DNA of 64,000 nucleotides from contig NZ_CP143889.1 in the NCBI RefSeq assembly GCF_036417355.1, positions 124,001 to 188,000 of the forward strand. Direction: 5' to 3'. Numbering within the stretch: position 1 is the first letter of the stretch; every line of letters starts with the position of its first letter. The translations under genes were made by a program, and so were the position numbers. Source of the stretch: Akkermansia sp. RCC_12PD. Lineage in GTDB: Bacteria > Verrucomicrobiota > Verrucomicrobiia > Verrucomicrobiales > Akkermansiaceae. Positions 54,111-58,708 of this stretch are shown here, piece after piece. Under the pieces are notes generated by a model that made no database searches, was not told where the DNA came from, and was given only the letters and a program-made list of their open reading frames with translations.

Positions 54111-55847
54111 ATGAGCGAAGAAGCTTACAAACTCCCCAAAGACGCCGCTGCCGCGGAAGGCAAGGTGAACGTCCAGATCAACGGCACGTGGTACCGTTTC
54201 CCGCGCGGCACCAGGATTGCAGACGCCTGCCGCTCCGTGGGCGTACCGATTCCCTGCTTCTGCTACCATCCCAAGCTGGCCGTCGTCGGCTCCTGCCGCA
54301 TGTGCCTGGTGGAACAGGGCATGCCTCCCAGGCTGGCTCCGGGGCAGACTCCCTCCTACGACGAACAGGGTTTCCAGCCCATCCAGTGGATGCCCCGCCC
54401 CATCATCTCCTGCGCGAACACGGTAGCGGAAAACATGGGCGTACGCACGGACAGCCCGCTGGCGGCCGAGGCGCGCCGCGGCGTGCTGGAATTCCTGCTC
54501 ACCAGCCACCCGCTGGACTGCCCCATCTGCGACCAGGCCGGGGAATGCAAGCTTCAGGAATACTCCAACGACTACGGCCAGATTGAAGGCCGCTACGAGG
54601 AAAAGAAAACCAAGAAGGGCAAGAACCTCAGCATCGGCCCGCGCGTCAATCTGGACCAGGAACGCTGCGTGCTCTGCGGCCGCTGCGTGCGCTTCATGCG
54701 CGACATCATGCACGACGAAGTGCTCACGATGTCCCAGCGCGGCACGTACAACGCCATCACGGTCTATCCCGGCCGGGAACTGGACAGCAACTATTCCCTG
54801 AACACCGTAGACCTTTGCCCGGTGGGCGCCCTGACCTCCAAGGACTTCCGCTTCAAGATGCGCGTGTGGTTCCTGAAGGAGACCAAGACCATTGACGTGG
54901 ACTGCGGCACCGGCACCAACATCACCCTGTGGACCAGGGAAGACCGGGTGTACCGCATCACCCCGCGCCCGAACGACGCCGTGAACTCCTGCTGGATGCC
55001 GGACTCCCACCGCCTGAATTACAAATACATCAATTCTCCCCAGCGCATCCCGCAGCCCGTGATCCGCACGGACGCCGGAGCTCCCCACCGCCCGGCCACC
55101 TGGGAACCGGCCCTGGCTTCCGCCGCGGAAGCCTTCAAGCGCATTTCCCCGGACAAAATCGCGATCATCGCCTCCGGACGGATGACCAATGAAGAACTTT
55201 ACATGGTGCGCCACCTGGCCGCCCAGATCGGCACGGACAAGGTGGACATCGTACTCCGCACGGGGGAAAGCGACGGAATGCTGATTTCCGCAGACCGCAA
55301 CCCAAACACGAACGGCGCGAAGCTGGTGCTGGGCATCGACCCCGGTTCCAGACTGGACGCCATCCGGGAAGGAGTGCGCAACGGCTCCGTCAAGGCCGTC
55401 CTCGCCCTGGGGGAAGACCTCACCGCTCCGGAAGCCGGATTCACGCCGGAAGACCTCAAGAAGCTGGACTACCTCTTCATGATCGCCCACAGCGCCAATG
55501 AAACGGGCCGCCATGCGGACCTGGTGCTCCCCGGCGTCACCTATGCCGAAAAATTCGGAACCATGATCAACGTGGCGGGCCGCATCCAGCGCCTTAACCG
55601 CGCCATCCGGCCCGTGGGCTATTCCCGCGACGACTGGCAGATCCTGAGGGACATCACTGTGGCCCTGGGCGGCAATCCCGCCCTGAAGGACTTCTCCTCA
55701 GCCCTGGATATCCTGACGGTCATGAGCACCGAATACAAGGCGCTGAACGGCCTTACCTGGGGTTCCATCGGAGACGGCGGCCTGCCCATTCTGGAAACGG
55801 GCGTCACCATTCCCATGGTGGAACGCGAAAGGAACCAGCCCCGCTAA
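54111..55847 (+). CDS. nuoG: NADH-quinone oxidoreductase subunit G
   Basis: The 75-kDa-type iron-sulfur subunit, 578 residues. The [2Fe-2S] N1b ligands are in CFCYHPKLAVVGSCRMC with a distal Cys in IISCANTV. The HxxxCxxCxxxxxC set of cluster N5 is HPLDCPICDQAGECKL, and N4 is CVLCGRCVRF with a distal CPVG. A truncated molybdopterin-oxidoreductase-like domain follows (HRLNYKYINSPQRIPQPVI, later NETGRHADLVLPG). It is shorter than the 908-residue E. coli protein, as in many bacteria whose NuoG has a reduced C-terminal domain. An insertion near residues 90-105 (QGMPPRLAPGQTPSYDEQG) is mildly unusual. Confidence 0.96.
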   Translation: MSEEAYKLPKDAAAAEGKVNVQINGTWYRFPRGTRIADACRSVGVPIPCFCYHPKLAVVGSCRMCLVEQGMPPRLAPGQTPSYDEQGFQPIQWMPRPIISCANTVAENMGVRTDSPLAAEARRGVLEFLLTSHPLDCPICDQAGECKLQEYSNDYGQIEGRYEEKKTKKGKNLSIGPRVNLDQERCVLCGRCVRFMRDIMHDEVLTMSQRGTYNAITVYPGRELDSNYSLNTVDLCPVGALTSKDFRFKMRVWFLKETKTIDVDCGTGTNITLWTREDRVYRITPRPNDAVNSCWMPDSHRLNYKYINSPQRIPQPVIRTDAGAPHRPATWEPALASAAEAFKRISPDKIAIIASGRMTNEELYMVRHLAAQIGTDKVDIVLRTGESDGMLISADRNPNTNGAKLVLGIDPGSRLDAIREGVRNGSVKAVLALGEDLTAPEAGFTPEDLKKLDYLFMIAHSANETGRHADLVLPGVTYAEKFGTMINVAGRIQRLNRAIRPVGYSRDDWQILRDITVALGGNPALKDFSSALDILTVMSTEYKALNGLTWGSIGDGGLPILETGVTIPMVERERNQPR

Positions 55848-55882: not shown

Positions 55883-57151
55883 ATGATTGATTCGATTCTA
55901 ACCTTCTGCGACGAGGTGCTCAGCAACCCCATCTGGTTCTACGTCATCACCCTGCTGATCAAGATCGTCATCTGCTTTGCCATCACCATCCTGTTCATTC
56001 CGATCTGCGTGTACATCGAACGCCGGGTGGCCGCCTGGATCCAGGACCGCGTGGGCCCCAACCGCGCCGGCATCCCGCTGAGCATCTTCCGCCGCTTCGG
56101 CATGAAGTCCGACCTGCCGTTCAAGAAGACGCTGGACTACTTCGGCCTGCCCCACGACGGCAAGATCGCCAACCTGTGCCGCTTCTTCCGCCTGGACCGG
56201 GACATTCCCATCTTCGGCCTCGTCCAGCCCATGGTGGACGGCGGCAAGCTGTTCCTGAAGCAGGACTTCACGCCGCCCTTCGTGCGCCGCGTCTATTTCT
56301 GGATCGCCCCGATGCTGGTGCTTGCCCCGCCGCTGATGACGGCCGCCGTCATCCCCTTTGCCGGAGACCTGCACACCTCCTACGGCAATGTGAACATGGC
56401 CGTGGCCAACCTGAGCGTGGGGCCGCTGTGGGTGTTCGCCATCTCCTCCCTTTCCGTGTACGGCCTGGTGCTGGCGGGCTGGTCCTCCAACTCCAAGTTC
56501 CCGTTCCTGGGCGGCGTGCGCTCCTCCGCGCAGATGATCTCCTATGAAATCAGCATGGGACTGTCCATCATCCCCGTTCTGATGATTTACAGCACGCTGG
56601 ACCTGTCCAACATCGTGGAATACCAGGCGGCCAACGGCTGGCTGCTGCTTCCCGTGTGGGGAGAGGGCCTGAGCTGGCAACGCTGGATTCTGCTGGTGCC
56701 CGTGGCCATCAGCTTCCTCATCTTCCTGACTTCCATCTTCGCGGAAGCCAACCGCACCCCCTTCGACATGTCCGAATGCGAGACGGACCTCGTGGGCGGC
56801 TATCACACGGAATACTCTTCCATGAAGTTCGCGCAGTTCTTCATGGGCGAATACGCCGCCATGGTGGTGGGCTCCTCCCTGGTCATCACGCTCTTCCTGG
56901 GCGGCTGGTCCATCGGCTTCGGCCTGGACGGCTGGCTGAACGAACACGTCGCCAACTGGGTGGCGGTGCTCTGCCAGCTGATTGCCTACGTGCTCAAGCT
57001 CCTCTTCTTCGCCTTCTTCTTCGTCTGGGTGCGCTGGACGCTGCCCCGCTTCCGCTATGACCAGGTGATGAAGCTCGGCTGGATGGTCTTCTTTGAACTG
57101 GCCGTCATCAACATCTTCATCACGGCCGCCATCCTGTACTTCGTCAAGTAA
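55883..57151 (+). CDS. nuoH: NADH-quinone oxidoreductase subunit H, with a cytoplasmic-loop insertion
   Basis: The membrane subunit that joins the quinone site to the proton-pumping arm, 422 residues with about eight transmembrane helices. Family motifs are YIERRVAAWIQDRVGPNRAG (residues 45-63), QPMVDGGKLFLKQDF (115-129) and EANRTPFDMSECETDLVGGYHTEYSS. In most NuoH proteins the first two motifs are nearly contiguous; here about 45 extra residues (64-111) separate them. Loop residues are basic and aromatic. Position in the operon and all conserved acidic residues support a functional subunit. Confidence 0.96.
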   Translation: MIDSILTFCDEVLSNPIWFYVITLLIKIVICFAITILFIPICVYIERRVAAWIQDRVGPNRAGIPLSIFRRFGMKSDLPFKKTLDYFGLPHDGKIANLCRFFRLDRDIPIFGLVQPMVDGGKLFLKQDFTPPFVRRVYFWIAPMLVLAPPLMTAAVIPFAGDLHTSYGNVNMAVANLSVGPLWVFAISSLSVYGLVLAGWSSNSKFPFLGGVRSSAQMISYEISMGLSIIPVLMIYSTLDLSNIVEYQAANGWLLLPVWGEGLSWQRWILLVPVAISFLIFLTSIFAEANRTPFDMSECETDLVGGYHTEYSSMKFAQFFMGEYAAMVVGSSLVITLFLGGWSIGFGLDGWLNEHVANWVAVLCQLIAYVLKLLFFAFFFVWVRWTLPRFRYDQVMKLGWMVFFELAVINIFITAAILYFVK

Positions 57152-57781: not shown

Positions 57782-58708
57782 ATGAACATTTTTGCCAGTG
57801 ACATACTCTTCTACGTCTTCGGGGCCCTGGCCGTGATCCTGTCCCTAATGGTCGTCTTCATGCGCAACCCCGTTTCCTCCGCCATGATGATGGCCCTCTC
57901 CTTCGGGGCGACGGCCGCCGTCATGATCGGTCTGGGCGCCCACTTCCTGGGCATTCTGCAAATCCTCGTGTACGCCGGGGCTATCATGGTTCTCTTCGCG
58001 TTCATCATCATGCTGCTGAACGTAAAGCTGGAAACCTCCCCCTTCCGGCGGCCCGTTTCCGTCGCCGTGGGCGTCATCATCGCAGGGCTGTTCCTCGGCC
58101 AGCTCATCGGCATCATCTACTCCCTGCCCGGCGCGAAGGATTGCGGCCGCTGTCCGATGGCCAGCGCGGAACAGGCCTGGAACGACTTGAAGATCGGACA
58201 AAACGAGGCTAACGAAGCTACGGAATGCAACGCTGGCGTGGCCTGCGGATTGCGCGCCTCGACTTCCGCTTTTACAAATGCTGAAATCGACCGCCTGATC
58301 AACAACGGCCAGCAACAAGGAAACGTGGAATCCGCCCAGGCTCCGGGAGCAGCCGCATCCGGCAAGCACGGCGTCAACGGCCTTCCTCTCGACAAAATCG
58401 CCATCTGCGGACAGAAGCAAAGGAACTATGCCTTTTCCGGAAACTCCATTGACTGTTTATTGTTGAGTTCATCTATCCAGGCCCCCCGGATCACCCTTCC
58501 TCCGCTTTCCCCCAAATGTTCCGCGCATCTTTATCCGGAAGGCACCACCATCCGGGCGGAGATCAACAACGGGGAATTCCCGGATACCGCCCTGCTGGGC
58601 CGCACCCTGTTTGACAAGTACAACCGCACGCTGGTCATCGCAGGGCTGGCCCTGCTGGTGGCCTCCATCGGGGTCGTGGTCCTGAGCCGCCGCCCCTCCG
58701 GCAAATAA
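57782..58708 (+). CDS. nuoJ: NADH-quinone oxidoreductase subunit J, with a ~150-residue insertion
   Basis: A membrane subunit of the proton-translocating arm. Usual NuoJ is about 165-200 residues; this one has 308. Residues 1-116 show the normal first four helices (FGALAVILSLMVVFMRNPVSSA, LGILQILVYAGAIMVLFAFIIMLLN), and residues 268-308 the normal last helix (LGRTLFDKY... then VIAGLALLVASIGVVVLSR). Between them, residues ~118-267 are an unfamiliar polar segment with seven Cys (including CGRC and two in ECNAGVAC). It is less GC-rich than the rest of the operon. By the known NuoJ topology the insert would face the periplasm. Confidence 0.93.
   Translation: MNIFASDILFYVFGALAVILSLMVVFMRNPVSSAMMMALSFGATAAVMIGLGAHFLGILQILVYAGAIMVLFAFIIMLLNVKLETSPFRRPVSVAVGVIIAGLFLGQLIGIIYSLPGAKDCGRCPMASAEQAWNDLKIGQNEANEATECNAGVACGLRASTSAFTNAEIDRLINNGQQQGNVESAQAPGAAASGKHGVNGLPLDKIAICGQKQRNYAFSGNSIDCLLLSSSIQAPRITLPPLSPKCSAHLYPEGTTIRAEINNGEFPDTALLGRTLFDKYNRTLVIAGLALLVASIGVVVLSRRPSGK

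Follow-up and report, generated by a model that had tools for sequence, protein, structure and literature searches.

Bacterial surface proteins with recombining hypervariable segments have conserved flanks, a swapped variable centre and an allele tree that conflicts with the species tree. Core complex I subunits, by expectation, follow the species tree; at the locus described here, a short segment of nuoJ has passed between species, unlike most of the operon. Inner-membrane proteins can serve as entry points: the accessible part of PMC9291907 describes GltJK as the entry route of a Burkholderia BcpA toxin and traces the specificity in part to regions predicted to be periplasmic and, overall, to several regions including the GltK C-terminus, and the accessible part of PMC6832061 describes the use of ManYZ for entry by lambda-type phages. 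The NuoJ protein of Akkermansia resembles both kinds of system. As in the recombining surface-protein segments, we find conserved flanks, an exchanged variable centre and a tree conflict, but in an inner-membrane respiratory subunit that faces the periplasm instead of the cell surface. Like GltJK and ManYZ, NuoJ is an inner-membrane protein whose periplasm-exposed part can differ among species. However, specificity in GltJK, as far as the accessible part of PMC9291907 goes, does not lie at a swappable tip, and a receptor role of NuoJ is only conjectured. Our search of the open-access literature, by title and start of abstract, returned no paper on this NuoJ loop, and a published Akkermansia selection scan names, in its accessible part, NADH-quinone oxidoreductase subunit B and not J (PMC10540074).

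The window, a 64,000-nucleotide stretch of the Akkermansia sp. RCC_12PD genome, encodes nuoJ (complex I subunit J/ND6, 308 aa) on the forward strand at positions 57,782 to 58,708, as identified from the list of open reading frames and a Pfam match. The gene sits between nuoI and nuoK in the nuo operon, whose other genes in the window were named by eye, without family search; 11 of 11 nuo genes have relatives within a single stretch at 15 of 15 loci. Akkermansia NuoJ falls in the same Pfam family as NuoJ, Nqo10 and ND6 (Oxidored_q3, PF00499; E = 3e-32, 111.8 bits against a curated cut-off of 33.2). In the profile search for domains that the preliminary description had suggested, this was the only confident match; the others at E <= 1 were weak (Deltameth_res 0.63, and Ribosomal_60s 0.18 when the loop was queried alone). 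The best solved relatives are the NuoJ chains of 7p64, 7p61 and 3rko, which we take to be E. coli NuoJ. In 3rko the entire chain has 184 residues, whereas the loop between helices 4 and 5 of the Akkermansia protein alone has about 160 (residues 115-273, 159 residues). For E. coli NuoJ an N-out/C-in topology is given in the accessible part of PMC4604451. If this topology applies by homology, the helix 4-5 loop would lie in the periplasm, where the preliminary description had placed it.

That description had called the 308 residues longer than normal, and the relatives bear this out. Of the 53 NuoJ proteins from outside Akkermansia matched in the order search, 30 were read; 28 of these have 166-200 aa as called, and the other two (209 and 244 aa) have uncertain starts. 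Within Akkermansia, the NuoJ sequences come from 62 genomes (58 of 59 that gave a match, plus G077, G090, G097 and G108) and from G216, the latter from L083 (L240 of G216 lies wholly inside L083). Outside the A. muciniphila clade, 54 of the 57 called Akkermansia sequences, which include a few genomes twice, measure 199-235 aa; the remaining three have 264 and 293 aa, both with starts called too early, and 352 aa (G015). The clade itself, taken as the matches at E <= 1e-60 among 76 genus genomes, comprises 12 species with one genome per species in the comparisons. All 12 have the loop, with NuoJ lengths of 236-308 aa. Phylum-wide, the family search for NuoJ gave matches in 42 of 115 genomes.

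Since NuoJ lengths and elements are graded across order, genus and clade, the loop seems to have grown in steps, from an order-wide element before helix 5 through an enlarged genus loop to the long clade tip. The earlier claim of about 150 extra residues between the last two helices was right in its location, between helices 4 and 5, and overstated in size, as the stretch before helix 5 matches, by eye, an order-wide element and the genus loop is already enlarged. Absence from close relatives, together with evidence for a recent insertion or an assembly chimera, had been named as what would speak against the insert. Because 12 Akkermansia species have the loop in common, we conclude from the comparison that it is neither an artefact nor a recent foreign insert. 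At the same site, the 352-aa NuoJ of G015 (L011) carries a different and longer tip of about 139 residues (hand-set bounds), which is free of cysteines, contains repeated DGK/DGD pieces and by eye looks like a small strand-rich domain.

The loop consists of two arms and a tip, all on the forward strand. Arm 1 (residues 115-140, LPGAKDCGRCPMASAEQAWNDLKIGQ, positions 58,124 to 58,201) is conserved in the clade alignment, and so is arm 2 (residues 239-273, LPPLSPKCSAHLYPEGTTIRAEINNGEFPDTALLG, positions 58,496 to 58,600). The C-terminal half of arm 2 resembles, by eye, the order-wide NuoJ element: its pre-helix-5 stretch (I)RAEIxNGEFPDTALLG matches ..DLKAGxLPDxKLxG. Between the arms lies the tip or linker (residues 141-238, positions 58,202 to 58,495), which is hypervariable, ranges from 26 to 98 aa in the 12 species and is exchanged across them; judged from the clade comparison, it is the allele-specific part of the NuoJ loop. 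Protein comparison further revealed two weakly similar 19-residue motifs in the tip (residues 155-173 and 209-227, positions 58,244 to 58,462), of which relatives have one. Seven of the 19 residues are identical, a score reached by 5 of 1,000 shuffles with a split point that was picked after looking, and a profile built from the tips of ten relatives matched the window tip twice, weakly. An old internal duplication of the motif could possibly have lengthened this tip allele. A simple DNA duplication was rejected, since a search for a DNA repeat joining the two motifs found none; the protein similarity is suggestive only. An exact 12-base direct repeat (GATCAACAACGG) occurs at 58,297-58,308 in the tip and at 58,561-58,572 in arm 2 and may be due to chance. 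AlphaFold2 models of NuoJ, from two runs with 6 sequences each, were poor (mean pLDDT 45.1 and 49.9).

The insert had been described as polar, with seven cysteines including a CGRC motif, and this holds: all seven NuoJ cysteines (121, 124, 149, 155, 209, 225 and 246) are inside the 159-residue loop, a content that exceeds the 1.45% seen among 89,202 residues sampled from the genome (binomial p 0.009). Pooled over the 12 species, cysteines make up 59 of 1,356 loop residues versus none of the 1,776 other NuoJ residues. Every one of the 12 clade species has counterparts of the arm cysteines C124 and C246; for C155 of the tip, too, all 12 show an aligned cysteine, though in an alignment of a very variable stretch. 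The three other tip cysteines vary, and C121, which belongs to CGRC, occurs in 3 of the 12 species. A CGRC metal or redox site as a conserved feature was therefore rejected, and with it the earlier proposal of a metal site built on this motif. In the genus as a whole, a PG..CP motif is found in 51 of 63 distinct called sequences; of the other 12, two (L033 and L050) are missed only through starts called too early, nine have another cysteine spacing and one, L062, is cysteine-free. A cysteine soon after helix 4 is present in all of the 63 but L062, as judged by eye where the exact motif is absent. This sequence (G090, NuoJ of 210 aa) has the sole cysteine-free loop among them.

Tree and site comparisons show that NuoJ tips have moved between Akkermansia species, which is new; that the tip is an allele moved between species was missed by the preliminary description. 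Two trees were built for 11 species, with L083/G216 left out: one for the species, based on 3 non-nuo genes (7.5 kb), and one for the nuo backbone minus the loop (12.2 kb). G057 and G077 are sisters in both trees (100/100), and so are G047 and G017 (100/100). The tips of G057 and G077 nevertheless share an identity of only 0.18, though the pS of their nuo backbones is 0.028. At the same time, the tip of G077 has an identity of 0.93 with those of G017 and G049, and the tip of G057 one of 0.78 with that of G047. On the tip data, G057+G077 is rejected (p-AU 1.5e-5), and so, weakly, is window+G004+G037 (p-AU 0.03). Both backbone trees reject the tip-allele groupings (p-AU 2e-12 or less), which we set up with the tips already in view. 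Within the tip tree itself, the allele groups have modest support (78-90). That is, the segment tree contradicts the species tree with support.

Site patterns place this conflict within a short part of nuoJ. For the quartet G057/G077/G047/G017, the ten other nuo genes contain 285 sites that favour the species pairing and 5 that favour the allele pairing. In nuoJ of the same four species, 57 sites favour the allele pairing, all of them at codons 135-198 (G077 numbering), and the 11 sites favouring the species pairing are all outside; nuoJ thus holds 57 of the 62 nuo sites for the allele grouping, with sharp breakpoints inside the conserved gene. Because allele-type sites are confined to codons 135-198 and species-type sites lie only outside, the exchanged tract is, by this reconstruction, bounded by codons 102 and 206 of G077 and at most about 310 bp long. 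With G049 in the quartet, nuoJ has 54 sites of the allele type, located at codons 135-181 of G057. In this quartet the other nuo genes contain 181 informative sites, 58 of which favour the allele pairing as well, and the G049 operon is therefore mosaic elsewhere. Quartets setting G037 against the window were mixed (nuoJ 30/20/6 and 27/18/7), so exchange in G037 is less sure. Between the window and G037, dS of the nuo genes is 0.01-0.09 except for nuoJ with 0.29, and the two NuoJ proteins show 84% identity over aligned residues and a length difference of 57 residues.

One tip class has spread recently. Of about 42 synonymous sites in the 56-residue tip, the species that share it differ at 1 to 3 (pS 0.024-0.070), which is below the values for their three non-nuo genes (pS 0.15-0.26) and nuo backbones (0.10-0.13). 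By contrast, G047 and G057 have 41-residue tips with a pS of 0.178 (5 of 28 sites), about as old as the species split, so this class may be the inherited one. Overall, the five tip classes that we defined need 6 changes on either tree, with a minimum of 4.

How exceptional nuoJ is depends on the pair of genomes compared. The backgrounds were 400 kb of G000 and G004 (287 genes) and, for the other pair, 200 kb from G077 and 163 kb from three contigs of G057 (106 genes); genes were chosen with no gene caller, by a rule of our own that took the longest frames whose dN/dS is low. Among the 106 genes of the G057-G077 pair, only nuoJ has at least 15 differences in 25 codons together with less than 2% divergence elsewhere. 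Two other genes with more divergent blocks differ throughout and are probably not true counterparts. Four others among the 20 G057-G077 genes listed, which are not divergent throughout, have a pS of 0.22-0.31, although two of these genes are short and differ in length between the genomes; exchange is therefore not unique to nuoJ. Import-like raised synonymous divergence between G057 and G077 is seen at L233:12602-13156 (G057:C4:72602-73156; 0.24) and L235:3593-5302 (G057:C8; 0.22). For G000 and G004 the median pS over the 287 genes in 400 kb is 0.136. Here nuoJ is unexceptional, as 108 of the 287 genes reach at least the same divergence in their worst window. The nuo operon combines low pS with high GC3, and against this background the locally raised synonymous divergence of the window-G004 pair was rejected as proof of import. 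Once the tips are removed, the operon's highest 25-codon pS falls in the nuoJ arms in only 4 of 8 pairs.

Taken together, we consider it quite probable that the extra residues are a native helix 4-5 loop of NuoJ, enlarged in Akkermansia and periplasmic by homology, with structural arms and a tolerated tip that is swapped by homologous recombination. Between the conserved arms, the tip varies freely in length and sequence while staying in frame, and whole tips have crossed between species in short exchanges with breakpoints in or beside the arms, presumably through homologous recombination. The arms may pack against complex I on its periplasmic face, perhaps held in place by disulfides among C124, C155 and C246, although three conserved cysteines are an odd number, which counts against this. 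The tip itself would be a flexible appendage with no catalytic role, so that complex I would tolerate almost any tip; recombination and relaxed, possibly diversifying, selection would then keep several tip alleles circulating among species. As both structural models are poor, packing, disulfides and flexibility are inferred only.

Two other origins or roles of the loop fit the data less well. A foreign or mobile insert, or an assembly chimera, seems very improbable. It would account for the composition of the tip (GC 0.561, GC3 0.643), whose GC3 is below that of the sequence before (0.868) and after the loop (0.914), and the GC below that of the flanking operon in the preliminary description stands to this extent. 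But a GC3 of 0.6-0.7 is ordinary in this genome (48 of the 218 genes sampled over 400 kb): the codon use of the tip is genome-typical, the unusual bias lies in the nuo core, and a foreign origin is not needed. Over these 218 genes pS drops as GC3 rises (Spearman -0.30; G000 and G004, 400 kb from 120001; L167-L186, L147-L166), with nuo low, so any import scan in Akkermansia must allow for codon bias. A DNA search of the loop's own genome returned one match, the loop itself, the next protein match having an E of 0.14, and a mobile or repeated in-frame element was rejected on these grounds; one scan of viral contigs gave no relative of the loop. Moreover, G004, a separate one-contig assembly, encodes a NuoJ that is 95% identical and has a tip of the same class (identity 0.83). 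The idea of a remnant of foreign sequence is not supported, given the single genomic copy and the ordinary codon use. A functional domain, whether it forms a metal or redox site or serves to dock a periplasmic partner, is also unlikely, if less so. The conserved arms and the seven cysteines, three with a counterpart in every clade species, would suit it, yet CGRC is restricted to 3 of 12 species, the other cysteines come and go, the loop has no domain match, and G090 of the same genus manages with a cysteine-free loop.

The preferred reading, a tolerated tip swapped by recombination, leaves the selective regime to be weighed. That tolerance is purely neutral, a weakly constrained tip gathering indels and undergoing ordinary homologous recombination that is visible there only since the tips differ, has in our judgement close to an even chance. 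Across eight pairs, which are not independent, dN/dS is 0.04-0.14 in the helices, 0-0.35 in the arms and 0.35-0.84 in the tip in seven of the eight; in the eighth pair, the tip value of 2.4 rests on one synonymous change, and for the window-G037 pair tip dS is close to saturation. The tip values below 1, the genome-typical GC3 of the tip and the few more import-like genes of G057 and G077 agree with neutrality. Harder to reconcile with it are the short exchange tract with species signal intact on either side, tip-class changes in excess of the minimum, and a C155-aligned cysteine kept by 12 of 12 species within an otherwise free region. Diversifying selection, in which parts of phages, bacteriocins or contact-delivered toxins cross the inner membrane by docking on the NuoJ tip and a swap brings escape without respiratory harm, is a plausible reading to which we give tentative credence, somewhat short of even. 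It would explain why exchange in the quartet G057/G077/G047/G017 is restricted to the tip, why one recent tip is common to three species that are not mutual closest kin and why there are 6 class changes instead of 4, and it has precedents in the inner-membrane entry proteins GltJK and ManYZ, as described in the accessible parts of PMC9291907 and PMC6832061. Against it stand the tip dN/dS below 1 in seven of eight pairs and the lack of a known agent, receptor role or phenotype. A search for TPS domains (CdiA-type) found nothing in the 12 species, and 14 control genomes gave nothing either. We regard as doubtful, although conceivable, the more specific proposal that the tip is a variable 'ID loop', an inner-membrane docking site for periplasm-reaching phages or toxins which species escape by importing tip cassettes, with arms-race diversification at this one loop.

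The moving nuoJ segment means that part of the enzyme's periplasmic face is free, or forced, to vary. Forced variation, if true, would identify a site at which phages or toxins enter through the inner membrane of Akkermansia, and since Akkermansia is a cultivable gut commensal, either case is directly testable.

Two other subunits encoded in the window differ in length from those of E. coli, where NuoH has 325 aa and NuoG about 900 aa. NuoG (54,111-55,847) has 578 aa, far below its E. coli counterpart. NuoH (55,883-57,151) has 422 aa and, compared by eye with E. coli NuoH, about 50 extra residues from helix 1 to helix 2, between GPNRAGIP and LVQPMVDGGK; NuoH frames of the A. muciniphila clade likewise measure 422 aa, those of G015 and G090 438 aa.
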